A stretch of 64,000 nucleotides of DNA from Panopea generosa (Eukaryota; Mollusca; Bivalvia; Adapedonta; Hiatellidae): assembly GCA_029582155.1 (NCBI GenBank), contig CM055902.1:17239011-17303010 (forward strand). The letters run 5' to 3'. Of the stretch, positions 10,225-38,636 are shown piece after piece (the first letter of the stretch is position 1; each line of letters starts with the position of its first letter). The position numbers were made by a program, and so were the translations under genes. Under the pieces are notes generated by a model, which was not told the origin of the DNA, searched no databases, and saw only the letters and a program-made list of their open reading frames with translations.

Positions 10225-10258
10225 TGCTGTCATATGTACAGGCTCAGTTACCACCAAG
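10133..10258 (+). CDS. BTB gene, coding exon 1
   Basis: 42 complete codons from ATG (MAYQKVYMNQ) to donor AAG/GTATTT. The exon probably starts at 10108 after acceptor TATATTTCAG, which leaves 25 nt of 5' UTR here and implies an upstream non-coding exon. It encodes the first strand and helix of the BTB fold, including the DILCDAVI motif. An overlapping out-of-frame upstream ORF starts at 10111. Confidence 0.85.
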
Positions 10259-19200: not shown

Positions 19201-22200
19201 GAAGTTCAACTGTATTCTCTATTTTCGTTCTATTGCAAAGTAAGCTCAGTGCTTGTATGAATCACTGTCAAGTCCGTTTCCTGGGTAGAACCAGTACATT
19301 ATGATGTTGGTATAATTTTTTAGCTCTACTGGCTTGTACGATGTTGTGTCATCTGGCAACATATGTATGCAACAATCTCTCTCAAACCACTAGGTCAGTA
19401 AACTGTCATATCCAAACTCTCTCATGTTTGTGAGATTATTCACAAGATTGCCTTTTTTTGTCTAAAATTGAAGATGGCAACTAAAAAAAATAAAAATCAT
19501 CTTTTCAAAATATGCCAATAAGGAAATTTGAAAAAAAATTAGATAGTTACGATCCCTTTATATAGTTTATTATATTTGTACAATTTGTGTCCGTCAGTTT
19601 AAAAATGTCCCCGTCCTTATAACGCAACAATTTAGGGACACATGTTCTTGTTTCTTTTAAAAATGAAATTTATTCTGCCTTAATTTTCACAGAAGCATTT
19701 TTGTACAAGTAAATTCAGATTTGTTAAAATGATTGGGTTCCAAAGGGACAGGAGTGAGTCGAAATGGGTTATTGAGAGTTTTCGAAAAAAACATTTACTC
19801 AATAACTAGTCTGGCAAATTTGTTAATATTTGACATGAATTAACTATATGGGTAGGGGATTGAAGTTTATATAAATCAAGGGTCTTGCATTTATATTTTC
19901 TCTGTAAAGGGATTTTGAGATCTGAATTATTCTCTTAGCAAATAAGATTTGGTTCAATAAGGAGGATTGAATTTCCATAATGGGCTAGAAGGGATCTAAC
20001 AATCTTCATCCCAATAACTGGTCAGTCAATTTTTATCATATTTAATAAAATATAGGTCATAATAAAGCCCAGACCAAGATATCTGAAAAAATGTACCTAA
20101 CTGGTCCAGTAAGACATTTTAAGAAACAAAAACCTTTAGAGATCTTCAAGTGTGTATACATGAAACATACATACAGCAAGCTGCAATGTAAATTTCAATA
20201 CTTAAAAATGTATAAATCTTATAGTAGATATAGAATTGATGAAACATGTTGGTATCTTTGTTGTGCACAACGTAACATACAAGTTGAAATGAAGTAAATA
20301 TCCAGATATAGGTTAGTTACTAAAAATAGAAATAAAGAATCAATTTTTATATTTATCTTAATGTTTTTGCAAAAATAAATATTACACCGTCTTAAATTTC
20401 TTGTAGTATCCTAAACATGGACGTTTTCTACAAGCTGGCTCCCAAAAAAGTGCAAACTTCAAGATTGGGAGCCAACCAGTTTTAACCCTAAAACAAAAAA
20501 TAGTGCGGGCCTTGTCACAGATGAAATCACCAATAGTGTTCCTACGCCCTCTTCAGAGAAAGATCAACAGTGTGAAGAGTGATGACCTTAAAGGTGAACT
20601 TATTTTCTCATCTCATTGGTCAAAATGTTTTCTTGGTATTTATTGTAGACTCAAAGGTACAATCAAAGCTGTCTTAAGCAACCAGTCAAGGGAAGGACCA
20701 AAAGTGGCCTTTTAAGACAGGTTGTTGATTAATGCAGGTTAATTTGCTCTGAAAACATATTAATGGAAAATAACTAATGTGGCTGCTTAAGACAAATGGC
20801 TTTTTAAGAAAAGTGGCTGTTAACATAAATTTGGCTGTACATAATTTCCAATTAGCATCAATTTCATGCACCTGTGGATCTTGTTTGTGGGATTACATAA
20901 CATTTCAATAAGCCATTTACTAATAAGTCCGCTCTTCTCCATAAATCATGATTCAGTTATCTGTTTCAAATATCTAAAACGAATTTCATCAAACTTTCCA
21001 GAAATATATTGTTCAGTAAGAATCTACATCACATGTAAAAATTTAAGGTTAGAAGTTTCAATATCTGTCAGTTATTTGTCAAATATTTTGTAAGTAACAC
21101 ATTGTGTCTCTGTTATAACTTCAATATTAATGAAAACAATTCATTGAAGCTTCACGCAAGTAATCTCGACAATGAAGAGTGTTGTTTATAGAATTCATTT
21201 AGGAATGTCAAAGAGGAAAGTCATCCTTGAAGGTTAAAAGTTTTTTCTTAAATTACTGTTACTGCCGAAACTATAAATATTTAATTGAGTTTCATCAAAG
21301 TTCACATCAGTATAAGGAACAGTGAAAAGGTTGTTGTTAGCAAAGTTGAAGATCACATACATATGCTTAGGTCAAAGTCATCTTTATGTTGCAAAATCCA
21401 TCTTCATGATGAGCCGGGCCCGATTAGCTCAGTCGGGTATGCATCTGACTATCAAACCAGGGGTCATGAGTTCGAATCCCTTCCCGGCAACAGTCTCCTT
21501 GATGATTGATATACAACATTGTGTCTCATTATCATTCGTCTCTCAACACTGATTCAAGTGGGAAAGTTGTCAGTTACTTGCGGAGATAGGGTGTGCTCGA
21601 GTACTGGTTAATCCAAGGAAACAGTGGTTAGGTTAACTGATCGTCTGTTAGCCCTCGATGGCATAAAAATGACGCTAAATATTCAATCAATCAAACAATC
21701 TTCATGAGCTTGTGTTTACAGTGCTCCAAGAATAGGATAGCCCGATGCCCGGGGCTTGTCAAATCTGGATCCGGGCATGTGCCTTTTTCAAAGTTACTTG
21801 CCCGTCGGGCTTGTCTTAAAAAATCGGACAAGCTAGTTTTCACAATACATAGGTCTGCAAATATCTCTATTCGAAACGACACAGGTCAAACTGTTGTTTA
21901 AAGACCGTAACTAATCAGTATAAACAATTGACCCCTGCGGTGTTTATCATACCACATGCCCGATAATGCGACTTTGGTAAACCTCTCATGCATATTCATT
22001 TATCTATTTTAATTCCTCTAATGTGATTGGTGGATAGCTTTGAATATTAAGTAATCTATTTTTAATAACCGCTCTGATTGGTCGGATATCTACGCCCAAG
22101 GTAAACACGTTTCTTACCACCTACCGCAGCAAAGACTAAAAAAAAAGACGATGACGTAATTCGCGGGTGTTTCTCAAATTCTCCATTATGAAGAGTATAA

Positions 22201-25200
22201 AATTACCTCCCTTTGCCAAAATGGTAACGATTTCTAAAGTCTGGTAATGTTTTTGCAGATAATTAGCGATCGATCGCGTTATGTAAAATGTCAGCGTTAG
22301 GTTTTGGTAATTTTATAAATATTTCGTAGATTTACAATAATTGGAACGGTATGTATATAAATTTTCTTCTGTGAAAACGTTTGAGTTGATATTGAAATTG
22401 TGTTTACGGTAAAGAAAAATGTGGGTGGGGTATTATAGTAATAAACATTGCTTTTTGGTTGTGTAGTTTCAGCGTATATTTTCTTGGCATGATTTAAATG
22501 AAGTATTGAAAACAACAATTAAGATGAATTATGTGGGTTTTTTTTTAATATTTGAAATATAGTTGACTAGTTGCACTTTCTAGATATTTGAAGGCTATCA
22601 TAGACTGCATTCATTTATCATATTGCCAAGTTCTCTTGGATAGATTGAATAGCTATGTAGGATTGGCATTGCCATTATTGTATGTTGTGACAGCAATAAT
22701 TAGAAAACAAGAGAAAGATATTTAAAATAATGTTTTAAATATACTCCTGCTCCCACACTGCCACTGAATCGACAGAACAGAAATGATAGTCACTAAAGAA
22801 CAATTGATTGATTGATTGATTGAATATTTAGCATCTTTTTATGCTAATAAAGAACAAGGATTAAATACAACATACTGATAGAGACATAGTCAGTACTCCC
22901 GAAATTCTCTCACTTCTCCCGGTCTTATTCAAACTCTAAAACTTGTGATTTAGACATGCATAATGTTATTGGGAGCTTACCCTACATAAAATGAATACAT
23001 TTAAATCTATGTTTACATATTTCATATTATACTGCAAGGTGTATTAGTAATAAAAATCTGGGCATGTGAACCGTTGATCAGGGCAAGTTATTTTTCAGTC
23101 AGGGCAAGTAGATTTTTTCAATCTACTTGCCCTGGGCTAGTCCCAAATTTTCTTTTTCTTGGAGCACTGGTTTAAGAAAAACGCAATGCTGGTCTATTGA
23201 TAGAGTGTCTGCATCGCATTGAGGTTTTAGGTTCAATCCGTTTAATTGATTGATTGAATATTTGTGTAATTTTTATACCATCGAGGGCTAACAGATGATC
23301 AGTTGACCTAACCACTTGTTTCCTGGGATCCTGAAAGGTTAACCAGGACTGAAGCATAAGTAACTGATAACTTTCCCACTTGAATCAGCAGTAAGAGACG
23401 AATGATAATGAGACACAATGTCATATATCATTAATCACGGAGACAGTTGCCAGGCAGGGATTCGAACTTACAACCTTTGGATTGATAGTCAGACACATAA
23501 CTGAATGAGCTTATCAGGCTTGGCCCTGTTTCAGTCCATACCAAAAACTTTAAAAATGGTAGTTGAATCTTTCTCGCTGGGTGCTCAGCACTTAAAGGAT
23601 AGTTTAAGGTCTGGTCGGCCTGGTGTTAGTATAAACTGACTGGGTAGGGTAACATACGATGTGCCTACAGCATGATGGCATCATGCTCCAGTGTAACAGC
23701 ACTCAGAATATTGTCTGAAGAAGGCACTGCCGTGATATGATTGAAAAATTGTTAAGTGACACTAAGCACCAACTGATTTAAGAATTTCATTAATGAATTC
23801 AATAAGACAGAAGTCTCTGTAAGATAAACCAGAATATGAGTTTGGAAATTTCTACACAATTCAATTTTTACTGAACATTGATTAAATTTAATTGGAGTAT
23901 CTAACAGTCTTTGTAATATATGCAAACAGAAAAGTGAAACTATTGTTTCACTCATTCTTTAGCTGCAAAATTATAAAACCTGTTTTAGTGAACTTTGAGA
24001 TTATACTTAATAAAGTAATTGATATATTAGATATAGGCATGCGCAATTTGCTAACATTCTACTTGGTTATTACAAAGTCCCAAAAAACTGAAAAATGTTA
24101 AAAACTATTGTATTTGAATTGAAATGGAATACACGGAAGTACAGGAATAGCTGTAAATTTGATTAAAAAATTAAATTTTTCGGACACATTATTTATTAAT
24201 AAAAAAACAGATTGTAAATTTTTACCCTTTACTCCATAGATACTCGTTTTCCCGCACCAATCACAGAAGGCCTTTGAAAACAGTGCAGGATGAGTTCAGA
24301 TTCAGAGTAATCTGAACACTTCCTGCACTGTTTTCCACTCTGTCAGTTAATATAAACTTAATTCAACCAATAATTCAAAAGCCTTCTATATTAGTTGTCC
24401 AAAGGCGTCTATATTAGAGGTGTCCAAAGGTGTCTATATGAAGTAAAGGGTTAAATCAAGGAAAGAAAACATTGCCACTATAAATTTCTTAGTGAGAATT
24501 AGCACAAACAATTTTTGATTTGTTGATTATTGCATTCTTTAAAGCAACACATCCACGTTTGAACTTTTAAAAAAAAAAATTTAATTGAGTTATGAGCACA
24601 TTTCCCATACAAACATATGATCAATTAGCTGTATATGAGCATATAAACACAATCCCGAACAAAATGATGCCCAAATTATAATGCGTGACTAACACTTTAT
24701 AAAACAAGCGTGTAACTCACCCGAGTAAAAAAAAATTGTCAAAATGACTTTCAAGGCAGGTAAAGTACACTACGCACTAAAACGTGAAGTTTTTTAATAT
24801 GACTCGCATAATTCAACTTGAAGCCAAGTTGGAATCCTCGGCAATTTAAAAATAATTTATAAAGCGTTTGTCACGCTTTATAATTTGGACATCTTTTTGT
24901 ATAATTCTAAAGCGTTCTGGATAGTGTTTGTTAGCACATATACAGCTCACTGACCATATATTTATGTATGGGAAATGTGCTCACAACTCAATTGAAAAAC
25001 TTTTTAAAAAAGTTTAAACGTGGATGTGTTGCTTTAAAAAATCATCTCTTGATATATAGCTTAAGTCTTCTGTTTTGATTCATAAAGATTGCTATGCTAA
25101 TGAGAGGCCTGTGCAAACCATATCTAGATATAGGTTGCTTATCAGGTTATAGTTGTTCGCTCTTTAGACGAGTTCGGTAACGAACCTGCTATGGTATCAC

Positions 25201-27093
25201 CCGAGCGAGAAGTGTGTGTTTCAAAAAGATCTTGACAACCTTTGACCCATATGTTACCTCGGTATTGTTATTCAAAATAAAATATAGCTAAACAATCTTG
25301 TCTCAACAAAATTATTGTAATAATTATATTAAAATAATAAAACTTTTTTTAAAAATGAAAAAAAAATGTCAGATCATTTTGGGTCAATTTTAGCCAAAGA
25401 CCATGGTAAATTGTCCGTGGTTTGTCCATGTACCGTTTTAGCACTGCATTGCATGGTGGTCTCCAAAAAGATTTGTTAAAGAGAAACTTATGAAAAAGGT
25501 TTCCTTTGAAATATTTATCTGTCCATTTGTTACCTGTAGGGCGATTCAGGCCCTTGTGGGCTTCTTGTTTAATAATAAAAAGATTGATAACAAGTCCCAT
25601 TAGCAAACTGTGTCTGGCATTTAATCCACATACTGTGTAGAGTGCATCTGTAGCTTGGATGCATTTTGTGTCTCAGACTAATTTCAATTTAAAATAAAAA
25701 TGTCATTGATTCTTGTTTGGTAATGGCAGTGATATATAGAATTTAATCACAATTGTTTAAAATATGGGAAATAATTCCCAAAGGAGAAACATTCCTTCAA
25801 GATAATGAGTCCACTAGTTCCTATGTAGGTGAATGACTCTCAAGAGGGCAGTACAAATATGCAAAATTGTTTGTAGGAATAACTGAGGAATATTCCTCTC
25901 TTTTATCATAAACCTCCAAACTTTGAGCTTGGTTACACACTTCAGTTCATTTTAAAGGTAGTATCTCAGGAAAATTGCTATAAATATCTAAGAAAATAAA
26001 ATTATTTTGATAGGGAATACTTTAGTATCTCATTATTTATGAATAAAATACAAATTATTTAGTTTTTCAAATTCAGCAAAAAGAGACAAAATATTTTTTA
26101 TTTGGAGTCGGTGGTAAAATTGAAATCACATGCACACTGATTGACAGGCTAACCCAAGGGGGTGCTAAGACCAAGTTATAAAATCACGTTTCATTAGGTT
26201 CTACTCAGATTCATTCTGAGGTCTTCTTCCACCAGTAAAACTGTATATGCCATATACAACCTGAAATATATTGAAAATGGCCTTAAACCCCATCCAAAAA
26301 AACATTTTTTTAAAAAAATCCTCATATACATCCTTTAAAAGCAGCTTTAAAAAAATCTACATTACAAGTACATGTAAGTTTTACTAAACTTCAGAGACAA
26401 TATCTACAGATCTACTTTCACACCATGTTAGAATTTTTATTTTTGCAATATGTGTTTGTGAAGCAACAGGATATCACTAATTCTTCTGCGGAAACTTCTG
26501 CTAGGTCATTTTAAATTTATTCCATGTTCCATCAACTGTTATATTTACCCTTATTTCATATTTTTTATTCAGCGGCATGTACAAGTCTAACACAAGATGG
26601 GTTTGGTCTGTTTGAACTGAAACATAATTCCAATGTGCTGCAACGTGATGCCTACTTTAAACCTGCCCCAGAGACTCTCCACCCGAACGACACCATCCTG
26701 ATGAACAGTAAGGTCAAATACCAAACATATGTTGAAAATTTTAACGATGTTTCTCAACTTAATGAAGAGGAGCTAAACATTATATGTGTCGCCCACCCAC
26801 ATAAGGCCTATGTGCAGAAACTCTGTAGAAATATAGTAGATGTGAATAAAACTGAGCAGCTTGTAATGCAAAAGGCTGCTACGAAAGAACTTTTACGTGC
26901 TAAGGAGCATTTCGGAGGTACAAGGCCATCTGTGCCGACCTCGGAAGAATTTAGAATGTTGTTATCAAACTCATCGATGTATCAGCAATATTTTGAAAAA
27001 GAAAACGAAGATGAAGGTGTGACTGGAGACAATGTCATGGTAAACTCAGATCATTCTGTAAAGTCAGAATCTAGATATGATCATAATATATAA
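10133..27093 (+). CDS. BTB/POZ-domain protein, seven coding exons, 751 aa
   Basis: Exons 10133-10258, 11316-12400, 14053-14146, 15209-15356, 18818-18912, 20407-20593 and 26573-27093 sum to 2256 nt, exactly 752 codons with the TAA, and all six junction phases agree. Residues about 8-125 form a BTB/POZ fold: WKRDILCDAVICTGS, then AHRIVLVAACPMLQSM, then SSFLQYLYDGFM and NVRDVEKIARMLQV. BTB domains mediate dimerisation and often recruit cullin-3 or corepressors. Residues about 177-184 (GRKKAKGHR) resemble a nuclear localisation signal. A Ser/Thr/Pro-rich linker follows, with SUMO-type sites (IVKVEK in exon 3, VKSE near the C-terminus), then acidic exons 4-5. There is no Kelch, BACK or C2H2 zinc finger. 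The C-terminal exon domain is unrecognised. Best guess is a nuclear BTB regulator. Splicing and isoforms are inferred. Confidence 0.82.
10361..10618 (-). mobile_element. Inverted-repeat family copy in BTB intron 1
   Basis: CTTCTCCACTGACCATTTAC to CCTTCCTGTGGAGAACT. It matches the reverse complement of 12974-13294 along its length (for example the AGGGGCACCCCAACACTTGA block). A direct duplication of about 95 bp flanks it (10266-10361, 10617-10723). Confidence 0.65.
10963..11195. mobile_element. TTAA-flanked MITE, copy 2 (inverted), in BTB intron 1
   Basis: TTAA at 10959-10962 and 11196-11199. The sequence is the reverse complement of copy 1, with the central palindrome GATTGCTCGTTACGAGCAAT intact. 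It lies 120 bp before BTB exon 2. Confidence 0.78.
11316..12400 (+). CDS. BTB gene, coding exon 2 (large)
   Basis: 1085 nt from acceptor TTCTTATTCGCAG to donor ACAG/GTTTGT, phase 0 to phase 2. It encodes the rest of the BTB domain (residues 43 to about 125), a charged hinge with the basic GRKKAKGHR stretch, and a long Ser/Thr/Gln/Pro-rich disordered region. It is flanked by inverted copies of one repeat (10361-10618 and 12974-13294). Confidence 0.9.
12447..12632. mobile_element. Small MITE in BTB intron 2
   Basis: TTTGTTTGCTGTGCTCTG near 12465 and GGAGCACAGCAAACAATATA near 12599 are inverted copies inside A/T-rich ends. The element begins about 45 bp after the exon 2 donor. Confidence 0.55.
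12974..13294 (+). mobile_element. Inverted-repeat family copy in BTB intron 2
   Basis: GGTTCTCCACAGGAAGGAAT to GGCCTGTGGAGAAGCC. Opposite orientation to 10361-10618. Its open frames are by-products. Confidence 0.65.
13401..13691 (+). mobile_element. SINE family 1 copy, full length
   Basis: Full architecture: GGGCCCAATAAGCACAGTCGG (A-box region), GAGTTTGAATCCCCC (B box), body, and a CAATCAAATCAATCAATC tail. Intron 2 of the BTB gene, upstream of exon 3. Confidence 0.85.
14053..14146 (+). CDS. BTB gene, coding exon 3
   Basis: 94 nt after acceptor TTTCTTTTCCAG. One base completes Ser, then 31 codons (MQDYADNSCPSSGP...) hold the SUMO-type motif IVKVEK. The donor ATG/GTACAC is weak, but phase 0 is what exon 4 needs. 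Skipping this exon would shift the frame. Inverted SINE copies lie on either side (13401-13691 plus, 14421-14717 minus). Confidence 0.75.
14421..14717 (-). mobile_element. SINE family 1 copy, full length
   Basis: Opposite orientation to the copy at 13401. It starts (genome left) with ATTGATTGATTG and ends with CTAATCAGGCCTGGC. Intron 3 of the BTB gene, so it forms an inverted pair around exon 3. Confidence 0.85.
15209..15356 (+). CDS. BTB gene, coding exon 4
   Basis: 148 nt from acceptor TTATTCTGTAG to donor AAAG/GTGAGT, phase 0 to 1. It encodes an acidic segment (EEGDEDCSDTELYNYGD) rich in Asp, Glu, Ser and Tyr, with no recognised domain. A 50-bp minisatellite begins about 65 bp downstream in the intron. 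Confidence 0.82.
15422..15996. repeat. Minisatellite, unit about 50 bp, about 11 copies (BTB intron 4)
   Basis: CTGGACTGGTAGCATATATT plus CTACCTCAAACCACAACAGA recur at 49-51 bp spacing. Open frames through it are by-products. Confidence 0.88.
16001..17500. other. BTB intron 4, plain AT-rich part
   Basis: Very AT-rich with short TATATA runs near 16935-16985. No exon with matched splice sites and no repeat seen. Confidence 0.5.
17504..17888. repeat. Minisatellite, unit 56 bp, about 7 copies (BTB intron 4)
   Basis: TAACATGTACTTGTATGTGA and GGTACCCCTCTTATCATTAC recur every 56 bp with few differences. Confidence 0.88.
18281..18500. repeat. Degenerate tandem repeat, unit about 60 bp, 4 copies
   Basis: CAACATGACATAGGGCA or close variants recur near 18288, 18350, 18393 and 18447, about 320 bp before BTB exon 5. 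Confidence 0.65.
18818..18912 (+). CDS. BTB gene, coding exon 5
   Basis: 95 nt after acceptor GCGTTTCACAG to donor TAT/GTAATT, phase 1 to 0. It encodes DDGRMDEAGTDKGYPTTQ followed by a Tyr/Ala-rich tail (ADYASYANY). No domain is recognised, and its role as a coding exon rests on phase agreement with exons 4 and 6. Confidence 0.75.
18913..20406. other. BTB intron 5
   Basis: A decayed tRNA-like fragment may lie at 19150-19330 (GTGTTCGATCC, TCCTGGGTAGAACCAGTAC). Otherwise no feature. Confidence 0.4.
20407..20593 (+). CDS. BTB gene, coding exon 6
   Basis: 187 nt after acceptor AAATTTCTTGTAG to donor AAAG/GTGAAC, phase 0 to 1. It encodes a basic 62-residue segment (YPKHGRFLQAGSQKS... QMKSPIVFLRPLQRKI). 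It does not match a family I recognise. Its phase-1 end fits both exon 7 at 26573 and the Crypton-domain exon at 37840, so it is the likely branch point for alternative 3' ends. Confidence 0.75.
20657..20842. mobile_element. Dispersed repeat near BTB exon 6
   Basis: GTACAATCAAAGCTGTCTTA to TTGGCTGTAC, with inner blocks CTTAAGACA repeated both ways. A related copy lies at 42589-42760 in the opposite orientation. Confidence 0.5.
21413..21700 (+). mobile_element. SINE family 1 copy, full length
   Basis: The best-preserved head: GCCGGGCCCGATTAGCTCAG and GAGTTCGAATCCC match Pol III A and B boxes. The tail ATTCAATCAATCAAACAATC ends just before the hAT-like element at 21719. Confidence 0.88.
22020..22215 (+). 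promoter_or_regulatory. Promoter-like cluster inside the hAT-like element
   Basis: Two GATTGGT boxes (reverse CCAAT) near 22025 and 22077, a CRE-like TGACGTAA near 22154 and TATAAAA near 22197 fall in order within 200 bp of higher CpG content. No coding sequence follows in frame. Confidence 0.3.
22803..22846 (-). mobile_element. SINE family 1, 3' tail stub
   Basis: Only the 3' terminal piece remains (GATTGATTGATTGATTGAAT then TTTAGCATC). Strong 5' truncation, nested inside the hAT-like element. Confidence 0.5.
23244..23525 (-). mobile_element. SINE family 1 copy
   Basis: Nearly full length on the minus strand, from ATTGATTGATTGAATATT to GAGCTTATCAGGCTTGGCC. It lies immediately right of the hAT-like element and left of SINE family 3. 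Confidence 0.82.
23570..23748 (+). mobile_element. SINE family 3 copy
   Basis: Shares the order GTGCTCAGC, GGTGTTAGTATAAACTGACT, GGGTAGGGTAACATACGATG, ATGCTCCAGTGTAACAGC with the reverse complement of 34604-34790. No clear Pol III boxes are left. SINE status is inferred from size and tail. Confidence 0.5.
24225..24450. mobile_element. TTAA-flanked MITE, copy 3
   Basis: Same orientation as copy 1 (CCCTTTACTCCATAGATACT to AAGTAAAGGG). The left target copy is decayed to TTTA; the right TTAA is intact. The flanking 90 bp to the right is duplicated at 34511-34599. Confidence 0.75.
24543..25033. mobile_element. MITE B, 491 bp, with long inverted repeats and TTAA target
   Basis: The left end AGCAACACATCCACGTTTGA continues about 70 bp as an inverted repeat of the right end (TTTAAACGTGGATGTGTTGCT). 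TTAA flanks both ends. The paralogous locus at 34595-34598 shows a single TTAA without the element, an empty site. Confidence 0.72.
25035..26572. other. BTB intron 6, right part
   Basis: No repeat structure or exon that I can support. AT-rich. Confidence 0.4.
26573..27093 (+). CDS. BTB gene, terminal coding exon 7 (isoform A)
   Basis: 521 nt from acceptor TTTTTATTCAG to TAA. It encodes 172 residues plus a split Ala: a compact-looking segment (LTQDGFGLFELKHN, ELNIICVAHPHKAYVQKLCR) followed by a charged tail ending VKSESRYDHNI. The composition is coding-like and the open frame spans the whole exon, but I do not recognise the domain. An AATAAA lies at 27211, and a 56-bp minisatellite fills the downstream sequence. 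Confidence 0.82.
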
Positions 27094-27179
27094 ATAGTGA
27101 GAAAAAAAAAGCATCCTGTATATAATGACTTTTCGGAAAGCAGCTGCATAAATAAGAAAGATTATTTGAATCTAAATAT

Positions 27180-28745
27180 AGTGGGATATTGAGGAAATGG
27201 CTGTATATGAAATAAAAGTGATTTGATTGAAACAGCTGTGATACTGGAAAAACAGTTGTGTAAAAAAGAAAGGTGATTTGAAGGAAACAGCTGTTGGTAT
27301 AAAGTGATATTGGAAAAACAATTGCGTAAAAAAGAAAGGTGATTTGTAAGAAACAACTGTGTATATAAAGTGATATTGGAAAAACAATTGTGTAAAAAAG
27401 AAAGGTGATTTGAAGGAAACAGCAGTAAAAATGACATTTTGCAAAAGCATTTGCATGTAAATAGGTGATTTGGATGAAACAGATGTAAATATAAAGTGAT
27501 ATTGGGGTAACAACTATGTAGAAGAGAAAAGTGATTTGAAGGAAAAAGCAGTGGATATGGAGGTGATTTGGGGTGAGTGCAGTGGGGACAACTGTGTATA
27601 AAAAAGGTGATTTGGGATGAGTGCTGTGGGGACAACTGTGTATGAAAAAGGTGATTTGGGGTGAGTGCAGTGGGGTCATCTGTGATTAAAAAAGGTGATT
27701 TGAAAGAAACACCAATAAATTGAAGTGATGCTTGGTAAACAGTGATGTAAGGAAAAAGATGATTTGAAGAAAATGGGTGCAGAAATAGTGATGTTTGGAA
27801 AATGGCTGTCTATAAAAGAATTGTGATTTGAAGTGCAGATATAGTGATGCTTAGCAAACAGCTGTATGTAAAAGAAAGGTTTTTGAAGTGCAGAAATAGT
27901 GATGTTTGGGAAACCGCTGTCTGTCAAAGAAAGGTGATATGAAGTGCAGAAATAGTGATATTTGGGAAACCGCTGTCTGTAAAAGAAAGGTGATTTGAAT
28001 TGCAGAAATAGTGATGTTTAGGACACCGCTGTCTGTAAATGAAAGGTGATATAAAGTGCAGAAATAGTGATATTTGGGAAACCGCTGTCTGTAAAAGAAA
28101 GGTGATTTGAATTGCAGAAATAGTGATGTTTAGGAAACCACTGTCTGTCAAAGAAAGGTTTTTGAAGTGCAGAAATAGTGATGTTTGGGAAACCGCTGTC
28201 TGTCAAAGAAAGGTGATATGAAGTGCAGAAATAGTGATATTTGGGAAACCGCTGTCTGTAAAAGAAAGGTGATTTGAATTGCAGAAATAGTGATGTTTAG
28301 GAAACCGCTGTCTGTAAAAGAAAGGTGATTTGAATTGCAGAAATAGTGATGTTTGGGAAACCGCTGTCTGTAAAAGAAAGGTGATTTGAATTGCAGAAAT
28401 AGTGATGTTTGGGAAACCGCTGTCTGTAAAAGAAAGGTGATTTGAAATGCAGAAATAGTAATATTTGGGAAACCGCTGTCTGTAAAAGAAAGGTGATTTG
28501 AATTGCAGAAATAGTGATGTTTGGGAAACTGCTGTCTGTAAAAGAAAGATGATATGAAGTGCAGAAAAAAGTGATGTTGGGGAAACCGCTGTCTGTAAAA
28601 GAAAGGTGATATGAAGTTCAGATATAGTGATGTTTGGGAAACCGCTGTCTGTAAATGAAAGGTGATTTGAAATGCAGAAATAGTGATGTTTGGGAAACTG
28701 CTGTCTGGAAAATAAAGGTGATATGAAGAAAATAGCTGTAAAAAG
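27180..28745. repeat. Minisatellite, unit about 56 bp, directly downstream of the BTB stop
   Basis: GAAACCGCTGTCTGTAAAAG, then AAAGGTGATTTGAATTGCAG, then AAATAGTGATGTTTGGG recur every 56 bp from about 27,780; a more diverged version of the same theme fills 27,180-27,780. Minus-strand open frames of up to 202 codons here are by-products. Confidence 0.88.
27211..27216 (+). terminator. Candidate polyadenylation signal for BTB isoform A
   Basis: AATAAA 118 nt after the TAA. It is the first canonical signal on the plus strand after the stop. Confidence 0.35.
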
Positions 28746-30310
28746 GGAGGATATTTGTGGGGGAAAAAACAATTTTTGTGCTTAGATGATATTTGGAAAA
28801 CAAATGTGTATTGAAAGTTTTGTGTAGGAAAGAGCTTTGAATAGAAATTGAAATATGATGGATGTCTGATAATCAGGAAATAACTTTAAAGTGATATTTG
28901 GAAAACAGCTTTGTATTAGATATTAATTTTCTTGGTAAGGCGGGTTTCTCTTTGACATTTTTGCTAAGACAGAGTTTTCTTTGATGCATTAGTTAGACTG
29001 TTTCTATGTGACATTTTGGTAAAGCAGATTTCCCTTTGATGCAGTCAGCAAGAAATATTTCCCTGTGACATCTTTGTAAGACACATTTTGAGATTTTGAG
29101 GCATTAGTAAGATAAGATTCCTGTGATGTTCTGGTAAGATATATATGTTACAGTTTAAAGAAATGAAATGCAGCATATTTCCTTTAGCATAATACATTTT
29201 ATATGTTTGTCATTTATAGGTCCACTTATAATACTCTAATTTAAGGAAGAAACTGTTTTTTGATGGTTGGAATTCTGGAACCTCTTGATTGGAGCGCTGT
29301 GTGCATTTAAAGGAAATATGTCAGGATTTTTCAAAATTTTAATAGATAAATTATTTTTTTCAATATATCATGCCTGTATATATACTGAATAACTCTGTGT
29401 TGCCATAAGGACATATTATGTTTAAACATATCGAAAACGGATTTCCTAACAGGTTGGACTAAAATAGATTTCCCGCTAGAATTTCAACATATTTTGTGAC
29501 TTATCAAATGAGTTGCATGATTTCATTTTGATATTGATTTGATCCATCATACTGGGCGGGTTACATATTGTAGAATCTGTTTCATCTTAGAAAGAGTTTG
29601 AATGATGATGTGAAGGTTGTCAAGTAGTAATCTGATTAAAATGTAATATTTGTCACGTTTTGTTGATGTGATATCTTAAACCATTTGGATTTTATTCATT
29701 TATGATAATGAGGTTCTGGCAGACTGCATATCTTGTATAGCATTTATCATGAATTTTATGGCAGGTAATGGTGCATAATTGGATAAATTTATAATTGAGT
29801 ATGTATTATATTAATTATTTAATTTGATGTATCTGCAGAATCATGCTATGGTGCTAGCTGAAGCAGTTTATATTTATTGATACACTGATTCATTTTTTGT
29901 CTCGCCTTTTCGAAGAAAAAAGAGACAGGTGTTACTTTTCCGTCAGCGTTGGTATCAACAATTCAACGTTAGATATATGTGTTTAGCTCCATTCATCAGA
30001 AACTGTTTGGCAGAGTCGCCAAATCTGGTCAATAAATGTATTATGGGTGGTACTGCTCAATCGTGTACAAATCATTTATTTGGGTTACTTGACCTATGAG
30101 GATGAATAAAAAATTGGCTTGCACAATGTTATGTTTTTATTAAGGTCTGTTGGTTTGGAGTCACCAAATTTGGTCCATAGTTTTCTTATGGATTATACTA
30201 CGCAACACTAATGGTCCATGCAGTATTTAGGGTGACCTTGACTTCAGACTTTGTGGATGGATAACTCGGCTTACACACTGTTTAGTTTTTGTGTTACGCT
30301 GTGATGTCAC
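28746..30310. other. Downstream of BTB isoform A
   Basis: 28920-29110 holds four decayed copies of a roughly 60-bp motif (TTTCTYTTTGATGCATTAGT and similar). 29900-30250 includes GTCTCGCCTTTTCGAAGAAA with GAGACAGGTGTTA, a dispersed-repeat look. No gene. Confidence 0.4.
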
Positions 30311-30500
30311 TTTCACTAAACATCTCAACTTGAGAATTTCCTCAACTCAAATCTTTGAAAGGTTAGAACTTCATTTACATTGAGAAAATGCGTATCTATG
30401 GAGTAAAGGGTTAATGTGTAATGAGATAAAAGTAATCATTCAAAGAAATTGAAATTTCTGAGTTCTGAGAAAATCTCTCAACTTGAGATGTTTAGTGAAA
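30311..30500. mobile_element. Short inverted-repeat element, 190 bp
   Basis: TTTCACTAAACATCTCAACT at the left is the reverse complement of the right end (AGTTGAGATGTTTAGTGAAA read in reverse). The middle holds a TTAA-MITE tip. Confidence 0.55.
30386..30413. mobile_element. TTAA MITE terminal fragment
   Basis: GCGTATCTATGGAGTAAAGG GTTAA is an isolated end of the family sitting inside another inverted-repeat element. Confidence 0.55.
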
Positions 30501-30529
30501 CTGGCCCCAGTGTCTCAAATAGCAGTTTG

Positions 30530-30788
30530 ATCTAGATTAACTTGGCTTACAAAATGTTAACTTGGCCTACAAAATGTTAACTTGGTTTACAAAATGTTAA
30601 CTTGGCCTACAAATTATTAACTTGGCCTACAAAATGTTAGCTTGATCTACAAAATGTTAACTTGGCCTACACAATGTTAACTTGGCCTTCAAATAATAAA
30701 CTTGGCCTACAAAATGTTAACTTGGCCTACAAAATGTTACATTTAACTTGGTCTATAAAATGTTAACTTAGCCTACAAAATGTTAAGT
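30530..30788. repeat. Tandem repeat, unit 19-20 bp, about 13 copies
   Basis: TTAACTTGGCCTACAAAATG repeated with single-base variants. Confidence 0.85.
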
Positions 30789-31639
30789 GTAAAGCTTCAT
30801 TTCTTTGAAACTGTTTGTCCAAAAAACACCAGAGTGTGTTCATAGTCTCACTTTGTGATGAGGTGTTGTAGGAGACATTTAAATCCATAGACTTCTCTTG
30901 TTGTATAGGGCATTATTTATAATAGAAGGGAAGACAGTTTTATTTATTGCTTATATTACATTATGTTTTATGTCTCTGACAGAGATTATTGGTAGACTAT
31001 TAATTTAATTATTTTTAAAAATAGAGTCTGATGTTACAAAATAACAGAATAATTTAATGTGTTTTATTTAAAAGCACCAAAATGATTTCATTAGAACCGT
31101 AACAAAACTGTAAGATTGTCATTTACATCAATATATTTCTGTGTGGTATGTAGAATTGAGATGTAAAGAAAAAAAACAAACCTGCTTTTAATGACAGGTT
31201 TGTGACATTTTCTCTATTATTATGTACATGCATGTATGAATTTTTAATTTTTCTTTTAATATATTGTATTCATGGTAAACAATAAAAAATACCAAAGTTT
31301 ACAGTTTGCTTTATTTTGTCTGTATTATTTCATCCATGTTTTTCATGAAATGGCCAAGTATTTGTTTGTCAAAAAGATGTGTAAATTAAACTATAGTTCA
31401 ATAAATATGCATTACATTTCAAACAATTCAAAACTTCTGTTTCCGGTTTTTAGCTCTACCACTCAAAGACTGGATGAGCTTAACATTTTGGTAACTCTGT
31501 CTGATATCTGATGACGAGTAGCTGCACATTCTCTGAAAACATCAGATAAATTATTATTGTTCCCCGCTGGGTGTATCTTGAAGTAAGAAATATTATTTCA
31601 GTCTGAAACTTATCACAATTTTTTTTTCATAACTTGACA

Positions 31640-31790
31640 AGTCGTGCTGAAAGTGTTCCTGGGAAACAAGTGCAGAGCATATGTAGATAAAGTGTCTTAC
31701 TCAAGGACACCACACATGGCTATGACCCTTAAGTTAACCCTCCAACCAGTGACCCTCTGACCCTAGGTCCAATGCTCTACCAAAAGATCA
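31640..31790 (-). mobile_element. SINE family 4 copy
   Basis: Contains CTCAAGGACACCACACATGG and CTCTACCAAAAGA, the reverse complement of a tRNA-like head with a TGGTAGAG A-box and the GTGTCCTTGAGCAAG body. Confidence 0.5.
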
Positions 31791-31819
31791 ATTTCTTCAC
31801 ATTTAGAAACAACCATGCC

Positions 31820-32415
31820 TTTACCTCATTTTATGTTTTTTCTTCATTCCATGCTTTTCGTTCATTACATATTTTTTCTCCATTCCATGCTTTTCTTTCA
31901 TTACATGTATTTTCTTCAGTTCATGCTTTTTCTTCATTACATGTATTTTCTTCATTACATGCTTTTTCTTCATTACATGTATTTTCTTCATTTCATGCTT
32001 TTTCTTCATTACATGTATTTTCATCATTTCATGCTTTTTCTTCATTACATGTATTTTCTTCATTACATGCTTTTTCTTCATTACATGTATTTTCATCATT
32101 TCATGCTTTTTCTTCATTACATGTATTTTCTTCATTACATGCTTTTTCTTCATTACATGCTATTTTCTCCTTCCATGCTATTTCTTCAATCCCTGTGTTT
32201 CTTGATTCCATGCTGTTTTCTCCTTCCATATATTTTCTTCATTCCATGTTTTTTCTCCATTCACTGCTTTTTCTTCATTATATGCTTTTTCTCAATTACA
32301 TGCTATTTTCTTCTTCCATTCTTTTTTCTTCATTACATGCTTTTTTTGTCATTCCATGCTTTTTCATCATTCCATGCTGTTTCCTCATTCCATGTTTTTT
32401 TCTTCATTACATGGC
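31820..32415. repeat. Tandem repeat, unit 18/36 bp, pyrimidine-rich
   Basis: TTCTTCATTACATGTATT alternates with TTCTTCATTACATGCTTT. The 18-bp unit is a multiple of three, so open frames of up to 272 codons arise in several frames on both strands; none is a gene. Confidence 0.88.
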
Positions 32416-32464
32416 CTTTACAGATTTTAAATTGATCAAGAAAATGAAACAACAAATCATTGGA

Positions 32465-32690
32465 ATCGAAGCTTTGTGGGCATATAATGGTAAAGCATCA
32501 TACTCACTATCAGAGGTTGATGGGTTCAGTCCCCCCCCACCCCACCCCACCCCACCCCACAACTACCGCAGCCATGTGTGGTGTCCTTGAGCAAGACATC
32601 CAATCCACATAGCCCTTAGTACTGGTCAGGAAGACATCCAGCAAGATTTGTAAAAGTTGTATAAAGATTTTGTCAAAATAAATTATAAGA
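32465..32690 (+). mobile_element. SINE family 4 copy with C-rich expansion
   Basis: Head AATGGTAAAGCATCATACTC, a (CCCCA)n run at 32531-32561, then GTGTGGTGTCCTTGAGCAAG and a T-rich end. The C-rich repeat expands where the B box should be. Confidence 0.5.
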
Positions 32691-32782
32691 AATGTTACGG
32701 TTTAAATTATTTACAATGTAATTTTAGAGAGACTGCTCATAAATACAGTAAATGTCATGTGCCCAGCAGTGAAATCATTATG

Positions 32783-32960
32783 GAATGTGTGGTCCAGTGG
32801 TAGAGTATCAGACCAAGGATCCGAGGGTCATGATTTCGATCCTCCGCCGCGGCCATGTCTTGTGTTCTTGAGCAAGACACTTTATCCTTATACTGGTTCA
32901 AACCAGGAAGATTTCGAGCGTGATTTGTCTTTTAAAACTGTAATAATTTGCTTCACAATC
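32783..32960 (+). mobile_element. SINE family 4 copy
   Basis: tRNA-like head GTGGTCCAGTGGTAGAGTAT, B-box-like GATTTCGATCCTCC, body GTGTTCTTGAGCAAGACACT. No functional tRNA: the acceptor stem does not pair. Confidence 0.6.
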
Positions 32961-34192
32961 AGAGTAAAATTAATAAGTTTGAATTAAGTGAAATCAAGTT
33001 AAATTCATAATCTCTCATGTTTCCCTCTTGACAGTAGGGTATAAATTGTTCCATACAAAAAAAATAAACAAGACATTAAACTCTTAGAATATCGAGAAAG
33101 CGATATAGAAATACATCATATGTAACAGATTTAATGCCATATTGAAATAATCTGAAGGACATATTAACGGCAAACAATGAAACTCTCACAAAACATGCAA
33201 ACAGTTTTCTTTGTATTTCATTTAATACACACTAATTATTTCCAACGGGAGAATTTGTAAATCATTGATACAGTGAGATTATAATTTGTTTCACTTTAAC
33301 AAAGGACTTAATAATTCCTTGTTTTAATATAGTATATGTTTGTAATATGATATTTTTGCTATGATAATATTTGTCATTATTTTTACAAGATTTTGAACAA
33401 AAATGTTAATAAATGATATATAAGTTCTCATTTTATGATAAATGGCTTCATTTGAATCCGATCCATATCTGTTAAATTACTGTGTTTCCAAGGAGTTCCT
33501 TCTAAAATGACCAATAATCAGTTGAAAATTGACACTATTTGTGTGAAATATGTTAGAAATAACACGATACATGGATTCCTTTGTGCTGCATGTACTTTTA
33601 TTATAGACATTTGCTTGCAAAACTCATACAAGAACCAATCTGTATGAATATCTGCCCATCATTCGCGAACCTTTGAATGTGCTTGGTACTTCTTAAAAAC
33701 TAGCAGTTGGAGTATCATATGAAGTCACATGATTGTTTCACTTATAGCATGGACATTGAAAACATTTAAGTTGGTATAAAATCAAAATTATGAAATCTGA
33801 AAAAAAACTGCAACTATAACATTTGGATAAACCGGTCTTGCACAAAGAGATTCAGTAGATTCATTTTGTGTAAAGTTTCAAAGTTGAGATATATTGCATT
33901 ATAATGAAAGGGAAATCATTATTATTTGAGATAAAACATTAAAAAAATATTTGTTTCCTTTATGATGCCATGTTTATAAATTGGTTCAAAATTTCTGCTC
34001 AATAAGTTATGGTGCACATGGTCTAGTATCGGGGGATCAGACCCAGGATCACGGGGTCAACTTTTGGTGGTGTGCACACCCACAGACTTGCTGTTTGAAA
34101 ACATGATAAAAAGAAACACTCAGAATTAACTATAAACCATAGCAATCTTACTTACAGCACATCAGCCGAGTTCATCCTCTTCTTTTTCATCC
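32961..34192. other. Plain AT-rich sequence
   Basis: No gene, exon or repeat supported apart from a possible decayed tRNA-like fragment near 34010-34075. Confidence 0.4.
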
Positions 34193-34360
34193 GCCGGGCC
34201 CGATAAGCTCAGTTGGTTACACGTCTAACTATCAATCCAGCGGTCGTGAGTTTGAATCCCAGCCCGACAACAGTCTCCATGATGATTGAAATACGAAATT
34301 GTGTCTCATTATTATTCGTCTCTCACTGCTGATTTAAGTGGAAAAGTTATCAGTTATCAG
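34193..34360 (+). mobile_element. SINE family 1 copy, 3' end replaced
   Basis: Intact head (GCCGGGCCCGATAAGCTCAG) and body to CAGTTATCAG, then an abrupt switch to the interior of the TTAA MITE family at about 34361. The LINE-type tail is missing. Confidence 0.8.
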
Positions 34361-34506
34361 GAGCAATCTGAACACTTCCTGCACTGTTTTCCACTCTGTC
34401 AGTTGATATAAACATAATTCACCCAATAATTCAAAAGCCTTCTATATTAGGTGTCCAAAGGCGTCTATATTAGAGGTGTCCAAAGGTGTTTATATGAAGT
34501 AAAGGG
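34361..34506. mobile_element. TTAA MITE, copy 4, left-truncated
   Basis: The right half of the family joined directly to a SINE family 1 body. It ends AAGTAAAGGG/TTAA and is collinear with copy 3 plus its right flank. Confidence 0.72.
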
Positions 34507-34599
34507 TTAAATCAAGGAAAGAAAACATTGCCACTATAAATTTCTTAGTGAGAATTAGCACAAACAATTTTTGATTTGTTGATTATTGCATTCTTTAAA
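34365..34599. repeat. Paralogous segment shared with 24309-24543
   Basis: About 235 bp are collinear and nearly identical at an offset of 10,056 bp: the MITE right half plus 90 bp of flank (for example GAAAACATTGCCACTATAAA). The match ends at the TTAA where MITE B is inserted in the other copy. Confidence 0.75.
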
Positions 34600-34603
34600 A
34601 AAT

Positions 34604-34790
34604 TGGTTGATTGATTTTGATTGATTGATTGTTTGAATCTTTAATGTCATTTAAGCGCTGCCACACTGGAGTATCAAGCCGCAGACGCATGGTACAATAT
34701 CCCCACCCAGTCGCATTATACCGACACCGGGTAGACTAGACCCAGAACTATTGTCTTAACGCTGAGCACCAAGTAAGGAACCCATGACTT
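34604..34790 (-). mobile_element. SINE family 3 copy
   Basis: Reverse-strand copy with GATTGATTGATTGTTTGAAT at its left (3') end. The body matches 23570-23748 at scattered blocks. Its CAAT tail resembles SINE family 1, suggesting the same LINE partner. Confidence 0.5.
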
Positions 34791-35112
34791 AACGCATTTT
34801 TTTTTTGAAGCTTTAAACAACAAAGAACAATATTACATGAAAAGAACGAAAGCGTAGGTTACATTATTATAAACTGAAATGTTTTGTATTTAAATAAAGG
34901 CACGGAAAATACCTGACATTTAAAGTTTGGAGTTGTTTTAGTGGGTTTTTTTTAATGATAGTCTCCGAGAACAGATAGATAGATACGTGATTGCGTGCTG
35001 TTAATTTTCCTTCATCAGTTGCCATTTAAATGTCGTGGCGTGGTCTTGAATACATAACCACCTCAGATATTTTATGATTAATATGTTAGAGAGATGAATT
35101 CACGTTTACTTA

Positions 35113-35408
35113 ACCGGGCCTGATTAGCGCAGTCGGTTACGCGCCTGACTATCAATCCAGAGGTCGTGAGTTCGAATCCCCGTCCGGCATCAGTCTCCGT
35201 GATGATTGATATACGACATTGTGTCTCATTATCATTCGTCTCTCACCGCATATTCAAGTGGGTAAAGTTATCAGCTACTTGCGGAGATAGGGTGTGCTCG
35301 AGTACTGGTTAGCCTTTCAGGATCCCAGGAAACCGTGGTTAGGTTAACTGATCGTCTATTATCCCTTGGCGGCATAAAAATGACGCTAAATATACAGTCA
35401 ACCAATCA
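35113..35408 (+). mobile_element. SINE family 1 copy, full length
   Basis: Head CCGGGCCTGATTAGCGCAGT, B box GAGTTCGAATCCCC, full body, tail CTAAATATACAGTCAACCAA. Confidence 0.86.
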
Positions 35409-35577
35409 CGTTTACTTGCATCTAATCAATCGTGACACCAATGAACATAAAATAGGAAGATATTAATCGCTTACTATCATATCGCTTTTTAAAAACTTCG
35501 TAGATCGAAATACTTTAATACTTCAACACTTGAATAATTTGCAACAGATATGTTTCAAACAAACTGCACTCCAGTTA

Positions 35578-35735
35578 TGAAAACGTAGCACAGGAAGAGA
35601 TATGAAAACGCAACAAAGGAAGATATATGAAAACGCAACACATGAAGAGATATGAAAACGTAACAAAGGAAGAGATATGAAAACTTAATATAAGAAGTGA
35701 TATGAAAACGCAACACAGGAAGAGATATTAAAGTC
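35578..35735. repeat. Tandem repeat, unit about 24 bp, about 7 copies
   Basis: GAAGAGATATGAAAACGCAA with CACAGGAAG or close variants repeats. Confidence 0.82.
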
Positions 35736-35819
35736 TAACATAGTTAGGCCGAGTGGATACATCCATATCCTACAGTAATTATTGTCTGCTGATTTTATTG
35801 GTTGTTTATTTGAGATGTT

Positions 35820-36020
35820 AACGAATGATTTGGTACCTCCTGCATTGGTGTCACAGTTTAGCTCGCCGGGACGAATGTCCAGGAGAGCTATTGCCATGAC
35901 CCCGGTGTCGTCGTCGGCGTCGTCTGTAGACATCTTTTGCGTTTAGTTGCGTTTAAGTTTTGGTATTTGCCTCCAGTCTCAATTTTTGCATTGGTGGTGG
36001 GTTTTATCCCATAGGCGAGG
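35820..36020. repeat. GTCGTCGTC-containing dispersed repeat
   Basis: AGCTCGCCGGGACGAATGTC with ATGACCCCGGTGTCGTCGTC resembles a repeat type I associate with molluscan genomes. The reverse-strand open frame of 82 codons here is not considered a gene. Confidence 0.35.
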
Positions 36021-36528
36021 TTTGTTTTCTTTTGACAATTCTTGTTGCATTTCTTAGTAAGTCAACTCTAAGCACTACGTTTTCATACCCGTTGATACAA
36101 CTACAGTATGAGTAATTAAGCACATCTTATACCTGAATACTTTAGAGAACAAAAAACGCCATAGGCTATATATATATATTGAAACTAGCAAGGTTTTATA
36201 ACGTTTTTATTGACATACAATACGCACGATACAAAACAAAACTATAGATAAACAACTCGTCTAGATGGGCAAAACATAGGAGTCTTTTTGTCATTCCATG
36301 TCGTCTGCTATTACGTGACAACTGTTAAGCGCTTAGAATGACGGTTTGATTTAAAAATGTATCAAATGAGATTTTTACGTTACTAGCAGCACGGTCTGAT
36401 ATACTCTATTAACAGTTAATATTTTCAAATCCTTTCAAATCTTAATTTTAACTAACATTTATCTGAACTTAGTTTCGATATATCTGTACATAATTGACCA
36501 TACCATTAAGTCCCTCAATGGCTATTCC

Positions 36529-36531
<3 letters not shown>

Positions 36532-36577
<46 letters not shown>
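36532..36577. repeat. (CT)n microsatellite
   Basis: Pure CT run of about 46 bp. Confidence 0.95.
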
Positions 36578-36581
<4 letters not shown>

Positions 36582-36680
36582 GTTACAATATGCAAAGTTT
36601 CTTGACATATTCTATTAAAAAATTTATATCTCTATATATAATATGTAGGAACATCTACAGATCCTTATACTATCATTCAT

Positions 36681-36681
<1 letters not shown>

Positions 36682-36713
<32 letters not shown>
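36682..36713. repeat. (TA)n microsatellite
   Basis: Pure TA run of about 32 bp. Confidence 0.95.
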
Positions 36714-36716
<3 letters not shown>

Positions 36717-37059
36717 GTAATACTGTCACATATTTAATAGATTGATTTTGGGAGACAGATTCACAAAAGCTGTAAGCTTGAAATCTTCTGAATCCCTTTC
36801 ATAATTGTATACACATGTGTTAACTAATATGTGATATTTTCAATGTAATTGTATACTATTTGTGAATAAAATATGTTTAAACTAACTTCTTAATAATTAA
36901 GATCGAACTTATTTAAGTTATTTTGTAGGCTGTTTTAACAAATCAGTAAGAGCGACACAAACTCGACATAGTCGCCAATCACACTTGCAGTTCGGTGTGC
37001 GTGCTTCCTTTCTGTAGGATCTTGTAAAGACTATAACTTTCTCATCTAGAGAGGGATTT

Positions 37060-37330
37060 TGAAATAACATGGCACAAATGTTCTCCATAATCAGACGATG
37101 TGTTGTGCACAGGACCCAGGTCCCTGATCAGAGGTAAAGGTCACACTTTTGAAGATTGAAGGTCAGAAATAGATACATAATTTCGTGTCCGCTCCATATT
37201 TTCTAAACCACTTGACAGAAATAGCATGGCACAAATGTCTACCATAATCAAACAATGTGTTTTGACGAGACCCAGGTCCGTGGCTTAAAGGTTACAGTCA
37301 CATTTAAAGGTTCAACGTTATATATAGGTA
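37060..37330. repeat. Diverged tandem pair, unit about 160 bp
   Basis: ACATGGCACAAATGTTCTCC and GCATGGCACAAATGTCTACC both precede ATAATCA.ACGATGTGTT and a GACCCAGGTCC block. It lies 500 bp before the Crypton-domain exon. Confidence 0.6.
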
Positions 37331-37839
37331 AAACATTTCGTGAAGTAGTCAAAAACAGTCAAATGACGTCAAACTGTCAGTCAAATGACGTTTAACACTA
37401 AGCCAATTAGCGCTCATTAGGTAAACAGTTATCAATTATGAAACTCTGATCGCCCTCTGCGGTCGCTCTCTTTGGATTTCTAAATTGTTATATTTATATA
37501 AATATTTACTTGATGATCACTAACTATTACTTAGAGAGACTTGGATGTTTTTTTTTCTTGGAAATAGAAACGTGCTGCATGGTAACTGTATAGCTAGCTA
37601 GTTGTCATTCCTGATTATTAACCATAATATATTAGTAATACAATATCTTCCTCCTTTTTTAATATATATATGAACTTTTGAATTTAGTGAAAAAATGCAT
37701 TAACATGCATGCGTGTTGTAATATTAGTACATGTATACGCCGTTGTCATTCAGATACTAAGTACGTTCGATAAACATAGATCTTGTAAGGTGAGAATGTA
37801 TGTTAACTAAATTGTTTTATTTGTTTCAATTATTTGCAG

Positions 37840-38636
37840 ATTTCCTTCAACAAAACAACGAAATTGCAGACTTTGAAGGTTTTGCTCCTGCCGAACTTGA
37901 TGAAGCATTGACGCGGTTTTATCAGACAGCAATTATATCTCCACAGAAGCTGAAACATTTTCCCGCAAAAATTTCCCGCCATCTCAATTCGGCACCATTT
38001 CACAGAAACATAAACATTGAATCGGACCCAACATTCGATACCTCAAATAAAATAATATCACAGACTTGTGCGAACGTTCAGAATGACGAATTTAGACGTA
38101 AAAAGCCAATGACTCAAGAAGACCTGAACAAGTTGTATGATTCTGGTGTCCTCAGCAACGACAATCCGACCAGTCTGCAGAATAAAGTGTGGGTGGAGTT
38201 GATGATTTATGTGGGTGGACTGGCCCGGCAGGATCTCAGGAACTTGGAGAAGGATCATTTTGTGTTTGAGAAAGATGACGATGGACGTCTGTATTTCCGG
38301 CTGGATGCGCAATGGATGACAGACGCCAAGAAGCAAATACACGTATATGAGCAACCAGATAATCTGAACTGTCCCGTGCGGAGTCTTTGGTTATACCTGT
38401 CAAAACTTAATCCCAAATCCTTAGTATTCTTTCAGCAGCCTTTCAAAGAGCCAATCAGTACGGACGAGGCGATCTGGTACTCTTTTAGACCAATAGGAAA
38501 GAACGCACACAGCACGTGGTTAGCTAATATATGCAAAGAGGCGGGTGTAAGTACAGAATATAGGAATCAGGCTCTGTACTGTCGAGCAGCACCTTTCAAG
38601 TCTGAAAAAGCTGGATCAGTCATCTCCAAAAAATAG
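37840..38636 (+). CDS. Crypton-derived DUF3504 domain exon (QRICH1/ZMYM/KIAA1958-like), possible alternative 3' exon of the BTB gene
   Basis: 797 nt from acceptor TTTCAATTATTTGCAG to TAG, one base needed from upstream (phase 1). The 265-residue product begins FLQQNNEIADFEGFAPAELD, like the SAM-like N-terminal part of vertebrate KIAA1958/QRICH1/ZMYM C-terminal domains, which descend from Crypton tyrosine recombinases. TSLQNKVWVELMIYVGGLAR and CPVRSLWLYLSKLNP match the catalytic-core fold. The region that normally holds the H-x-x-R and Tyr residues is altered (YRNQALYCRAAPF where the family has a YTNH-x-x-R-type motif) and the protein stops soon after, so recombinase activity is unlikely; a DNA- or protein-binding role is inferred. 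It joins BTB exon 6 or 4 in frame, giving 843 aa with exon 6. It could equally belong to a separate gene with unseen upstream exons or be a decaying copy. Confidence 0.75.

Follow-up and report, generated by a model that had tools for sequence, protein, structure and literature searches.

In a 64,000 bp stretch of Panopea generosa DNA (C9:17239011-17303010; here, the window), an exon encoding a putative DUF3504 domain lies 17 kb downstream of a BTB gene, on the same strand. The initial annotation proposed it as one of two alternative 3' ends of that gene, which raises the question of whether a BTB domain and a recombinase-derived fold could be joined in one protein at this locus.

The BTB gene and its candidate 3' exons

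The predicted features, all on the forward strand, are:

10133..10258, forward strand: BTB exon 1, coding part from the ATG, residues 1-42; open frame, donor AAG/GTATTT
11316..12400, forward strand: BTB exon 2, remaining BTB domain and Ser-rich linker; Pfam BTB 1.7e-9
14053..14146, forward strand: BTB exon 3, open in phase; weak donor, 2.1 bits
15209..15356, forward strand: BTB exon 4, phase 1 end; strong donor AAG/GTGAGT
18818..18912, forward strand: BTB exon 5, joins in phase
20407..20593, forward strand: BTB exon 6, phase 1 end (AAAG/GTGAAC); last exon common to all readings
26573..27093, forward strand: open phase 1 exon, 173 codons to the stop; terminal in a 751 aa form, internal if the donor at 27016 is used
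27014..27022, forward strand: phase 1 donor AAG/GTGTGA (last exon base 27016), 7.9 bits, inside the supposed terminal exon
37840..38636, forward strand: putative DUF3504 exon (Crypton-derived tyrosine-recombinase fold), phase 1 acceptor, 265 codons, catalytic tetrad apparently lost, ending ...SKK and a stop

Joined, exons 1 to 6 (10133-20593) read without a stop through 578 residues plus one base, which confirms the phase 1 ending previously assigned to exon 6. Every intron boundary of the rebuilt gene is GT/AG; donor scores range from 2.1 to 12.3 bits, with ATG/GTACAC at 14146 the weakest (2.1 bits) and exon 6 at 6.8 bits. Exon 2 alone covers positions 24-106 of the BTB profile. When exons 1 and 2 were joined the full domain was recovered (E 1.8e-13, profile positions 2-106 of 110), and because joining completes the domain, the splice between them is supported. 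The best matches of this domain among solved structures were ZBTB17-BCL6, BACH1 and BCL6, and from its sequence the gene appears nearest to the BCL6/BACH/ZBTB class, which we take to be found in transcription factors. Downstream of the domain is a linker that, by eye, is rich in Ser and acidic residues. No further match was found in the genome to exon 2 at E ≤ 0.001 or to exon 6 at E ≤ 10.

Both downstream exons accept phase 1 and run to a stop, as had been proposed. Exons 1 to 6 plus 26573-27093 give 751 aa, and exons 1 to 6 plus 37840-38636 give 843 aa, with the first 578 residues in common. The proposal that the two are alternatives stands in so far as both are open and phase 1, but their mutual exclusivity is not supported, since the 26573 exon contains an in-phase donor at 27016 and could therefore be internal. 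Of the 28 GT sites listed for this exon it scores highest (7.9 bits versus 6.8 bits for exon 6); the next in-phase donors are at 26707 (5.8 bits) and 26917 (3.3 bits). Its use would give a third, linear product of 991 aa (exon 6 to 26573-27016 to 37840), and because the 27016 donor is in phase and outscores that of exon 6, such a chain fits as well. The 25 open codons past 27016 have a chance probability of 16%, and thus need not be coding. When the 26573 exon was used to search the genome, no further match was returned at E ≤ 0.01, and no Pfam family scored above its cut-off.

The expectation for such frames was estimated from 100 first-order Markov resamples of 20594-60000, using the same acceptor criteria. 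None of the 100 contained a phase 1 frame of at least 170 aa, the longest being 133 aa. The real sequence contains five: the 26573 and 37840 exons, and frames entered from acceptors at 31767, 31807 and 31920. These last three open into simple-repeat frames, one of which is the longest of all (274 aa). As the resamples yield no frames of this length, the 26573 and 37840 exons are more than chance. Between them, on the forward strand of 27093-37794, the open reading frames of at least 90 aa were confined to simple-repeat frames and 32706-32987.

Proximity was rejected as evidence for a fusion. At least 86 DUF3504 and at least 150 BTB matches are present in 1.474 Gb, the BTB figure coming from a scan that scored 150 of 352 candidates and did not return the window's own BTB domain. 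By our own arithmetic about 0.5 BTB-DUF3504 pairs are then expected within 27 kb on either strand. One other close pair was spotted by eye in the two lists, on C16 (19779517/19788422, 9 kb apart). It was put down to chance, since the DUF3504 member is a frame-broken L024/L027-type copy and the adjacent BTB frame has its own ATG.

A diverged DUF3504 exon and its intron site

The match of the 37840 exon to DUF3504 (Pfam PF12012) is close to threshold, with E 1.3e-6 and 29.0 bits against a gathering score of 29.7; it was listed at 29.7 bits, over the cut-off of 29.7, in the genome scan, and scored 25.9 bits within the 843 aa join. In the alignment the R-H-R-Y tetrad is incomplete: the first R is replaced (GGLA versus GMRG), NHxxR is replaced by YRNQALYC, and the chain stops before the Tyr. 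The exon therefore appears to encode a diverged, catalytically dead, Crypton-derived DUF3504. Its best match among solved structures was QRICH1 (9hjt), with E 1.1e-14 using alignment A1 and 2.6e-4 using the window and C7 sequences alone. An AlphaFold2 prediction of the exon product made without an alignment was useless (mean pLDDT 33.9).

The closest relative in the genome is C7:39828496-39829313 (33% identity, E 6.6e-22). The two exons are reciprocal best matches, and the C7 chain ends early in the same short way. With its best non-self match only 33% identical, the 37840 exon is of low copy number and not a mobile repeat. Third-position differences between the window and C7 exons exceed the mean of the other two positions by 0.227, compared with 0.114 ± 0.037 in codon shuffles, none of which (0/200) reached 0.227 although the largest came close at 0.224. 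Through at least some of its history, namely the part that it has in common with C7, the 37840 exon therefore evolved as coding sequence. Its 265 codons without a stop have a chance probability of 3e-9 at the local composition. The loss of the tetrad, the lack of a close genomic copy and the coding-type divergence from C7 all favour the earlier suggestion of a domesticated Crypton-derived domain.

Of at least 86 DUF3504 matches, the first 30 include sets of mutually similar Crypton-type copies; HxxR and the later domain region are retained in some of these copies. The window exon lies outside these sets. A tree of 14 sequences placed the window, C7, C17, C16 and C2 copies together (support 97/95) and the remaining nine outside. 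Branch order within this group was poorly supported, and with such long branches the grouping may be less certain than 97/95 indicates. Elsewhere, near-identical DUF3504 pairs lie 0.4-1 Mb apart on the same contig (C5 20.92/21.85, C17 28.49/29.48 and C18 42.91/43.36 Mb), either through segmental duplication or because both haplotypes were assembled one after the other.

The C7 exon begins at 39828496 after TTTTTATTCACATTTTACAG, two bases ahead of TGG. A decayed C2 copy with three stops begins at 21915587 after ttttccttttcttacag, again two bases ahead of TGG, and the window exon begins two bases ahead of TTC, at the same aligned residue as both. The C17 copy is contiguous at this site and C16 is ambiguous; L058, a relative outside the tree, is also contiguous. 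A phase 1 intron is thus found at one residue in three of the five group members. It follows that the 37840 exon inherited its phase, which was not fitted to the BTB gene. As the acceptor phase is common to C7 and C2, its agreement with exon 6 remains a 1 in 3 coincidence, which bears out the caution, voiced when the locus was annotated, that a phase match alone is weak. An acceptor whose residue and phase match those in C7 and C2 also means that the 37840 exon needs an upstream exon. It probably arrived as, or is left from, one exon of a DUF3504 gene that had introns; with the intron site common to relatives elsewhere in the genome, a fresh transposon insertion is improbable.

The missing partner and the competing explanations

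In relatives without the intron, a conserved segment directly precedes the DUF3504 domain. A 14-residue profile of this segment was built from eight copies in six families, and later extended with C7 to nine copies in seven families. On C7, the first of 156 candidates (donor at least 3 bits) ranked with the eight-copy profile was an exon ending at 39808152, NAKRQMNWAVSVFT, with a score of 9.33. This predicted exon end lies 20 kb before the C7 DUF3504 exon. In the window, none of the 402 in-phase open candidates in 20594-37800 scored above 1.0 on the nine-copy profile. When one family was left out at a time, the nine relatives scored 1.75 to 12.67 and eight of the nine known segments outscored the best window candidate, the exception being L004; the eight detectable ones scored 5.2 to 12.7. 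A wider scan of 50-37809 gave a best of 871 candidates of 5.86 at 14394, inside the BTB gene; the opposite-strand control reached a higher best score, 6.86.

Joining exon 6 to 37840 did not restore the preceding segment: the end of exon 6 scored -6.1 (rank 115/871), and on a shorter 8-residue profile its score is equalled or exceeded by 34% of 8-mers drawn from two proteins. With exon 6 unlike the relatives' segment, a direct fusion would have no normal first helix. The 27016 end was worse still, at -10.4 (rank 340/871). The exon end at the 26917 donor, AATKELLRAKEHFG, ranked 17/871 on the preceding-segment profile. We rejected it as an exon end because the 58 further open codons are a 1.4% chance event and several donors were tried. 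On sequence grounds, then, the 37840 exon stands without a recognisable cognate partner, which counts against a well-formed fusion and an ordinary separate gene alike.

The end of a giant C7 exon at 39800984 (phase 1, ...FIILK) was rejected as the C7 partner (-2.0 versus 9.33 at 39808152); on the 8-residue score it is equalled by 6.8% of random 8-mers. The 'LK' before the junction was dropped as a link between the window and C7, as 39808152 scored far better. The giant open frame itself, of 1525 codons (C7:39796577-39801151), lies upstream of the C7 DUF3504 exon (L051, C7:39820001-39830000) and of the 52-residue frame ahead of it. Its 1469 residues up to the donor matched no Pfam family over the cut-off.

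We put the probability that the DUF3504 exon is used as a 3' end of the BTB gene in some form at about 0.5. It would be reached either straight from exon 6 (843 aa) or via 26573-27016 (991 aa), and a 751 aa form ending at 27093 would be without DUF3504. For such use, phase and strand fit, both joins are open to a stop, and 265 open codons have been kept at 33% identity to the nearest relative. The lack of any likeness to the C7 upstream exon in the window is also what would be expected had another gene taken up the DUF3504 exon by itself. KCTD1b and KIAA1958 (PMC3212892) offer precedents. Against it are the score of exon 6 on the segment profile, a single phase match that occurs one time in three, and the commonness of BTB and DUF3504 matches. 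The direct join of exon 6 to 37840 is put forward only tentatively. In a gene that is simply linear, with the 26573 exon internal and 27016 spliced to 37840, there would be one 991 aa BTB-DUF3504 protein and the 751 aa form would reflect intron read-through. This arrangement, whose probability is part of that given above and not additional to it, seems unlikely to us. It would use the best donor in its exon, and open codons past that donor are no rarity by chance (16%), but its junction peptide is worse than that of exon 6 and, with BTB gene donors spanning 2.1 to 12.3 bits, the advantage in donor score is not decisive.

Outside the BTB gene, the 37840 exon could be the last exon of a DUF3504 gene of its own, with upstream exons in the 27-37.8 kb region or a short first exon there. 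The C7 exon, predicted to follow a cognate exon at a distance of 20 kb, provides a precedent, and short first exons escape a test of ORF length, ten weak in-phase candidates being present. However, no candidate in 20594-37800 resembles a cognate exon (best 1.0, with eight of nine test segments higher), and the best of the wider scan falls inside the BTB gene and below its control; we rate a separate gene as rather doubtful. The same lack of a recognisable cognate exon in the window would suit a now unused remnant of a DUF3504 gene whose 5' part has been lost, as would the decay of the C2 relative, which has the same intron site and three stops. No AATAAA was found in the 2.8 kb scanned past the stop, though ATTAAA is present at 39223 and 39398. 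The long open frame and the coding-type divergence from C7 speak against an old relic but not against a recently orphaned one, which we consider an unlikely outcome. A gene without introns, with its start at the ATG of 37800 and translation continuing through the acceptor, is very improbable. Although no stop interrupts the frame from 37794 onward, what precedes the acceptor is the translation of a pyrimidine-rich tract that does not match the tract found in C7, and the acceptor is present in C2 too. On the sequence evidence the DUF3504 exon seems to be a terminal exon that has been orphaned, either captured by the BTB gene or left behind.

If it was captured, chains would be paired through the BTB domain, with the recombinase-derived fold as a DNA- or protein-binding end that does no cutting, making the product a likely BTB-paired adaptor. 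We infer this function, as we do the splicing of the exon to the BTB gene and the route taken. More speculatively, and in our view rather doubtfully, a dead Crypton-derived exon with a fixed phase 1 acceptor may be a portable 3' module, with copies in the window (C9), C7 and C2, taken up by the BTB gene without its cognate exon and in the reverse of the KCTD1 order.

Known systems and the surroundings of the locus

A BTB-DUF3504 protein here would not be the first, as KCTD1 isoform b of jawed vertebrates is described as combining BTB/POZ with a Crypton-derived DUF3504 in a single chain; one exon encodes the DUF3504, which is present in only one of two isoforms (PMC3212892). In KCTD1 isoform b the DUF3504 is N-terminal and comes from upstream, the reverse of the order in the candidate product here. 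The KCTD1 BTB domain is of the KCTD class, whereas that in the window is nearest to the BCL6/BACH/ZBTB class. If both parts belong to one protein, BTB and DUF3504 would have been joined here independently, in the order opposite to vertebrate KCTD1, which would point to a repeated usefulness of combining a dimerisation domain with a dead recombinase fold. Such a protein would also mean that a transposon-derived domain was captured by the movement of an intron-bounded exon and not by fresh insertion. Within the open-licence literature, as far as our search extended into it, no description of a gene with BTB followed by DUF3504 was found.

QRICH1, ZMYM2-4 and WOC also contain a DUF3504 that has lost its catalytic residues, as in the window exon, and to our knowledge none has a BTB domain. 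The QRICH1 chain likewise ends 18 residues past the match, with DUF3504 near its C-terminus, though its sequence similarity to the window exon is weak. Crypton-type copies in the same genome (L007, L008, L024 and L027) belong to the same fold family, with 22-27% identity to the window exon. They differ in having several similar copies, in keeping HxxR and the later Tyr region, and in forming a separate clade; at the position where the window exon begins, L007, L008 and L027 read on uninterrupted by an intron. KIAA1958 isoforms a and b are described as coming from one gene with separate exons for alternative DUF3504 domains (PMC3212892). There DUF3504 is in both alternatives, with no mention of BTB, whereas here DUF3504 is in one only. 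ZBTB11 and other BTB proteins are described as joining BTB to a domain derived from a mobile element or virus, in the ZBTB11 type an integrase zinc-binding domain with zinc fingers and not DUF3504 (PMC12062965).

Repeats are abundant in the window. The largest is a 10.4 kb minisatellite (48578-58933) of about 252 copies of a 40-base unit; identical ORFs recur 2918 bases apart (e.g. 50800-51087 and 53718-54005), which suggests that a larger segment was duplicated internally. Further tandem arrays are found at 15424-15994 (unit 49), 17500-17893 (unit 56), 31813-32413 (18-36 bases) and 27238-28728 (units 44-66), the last starting about 150 bases past the stop of the 26573 exon. A short repeat that by eye resembles a tRNA-derived SINE (...ggttaggttaactgat...) occurs in both orientations at 13400-13650, 14480-14720 and 39000-39215, one copy lying about 400 bases past the DUF3504 stop. 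On the minus strand, an acidic 181 aa open frame at 60560-61105, which matches no Pfam family at E ≤ 1, is perhaps an exon of another gene. At the other end of the window, 1681-2004 on the minus strand is an ABC transporter nucleotide-binding exon (PF00005, 2.1e-8) of an opposite-strand neighbour gene.
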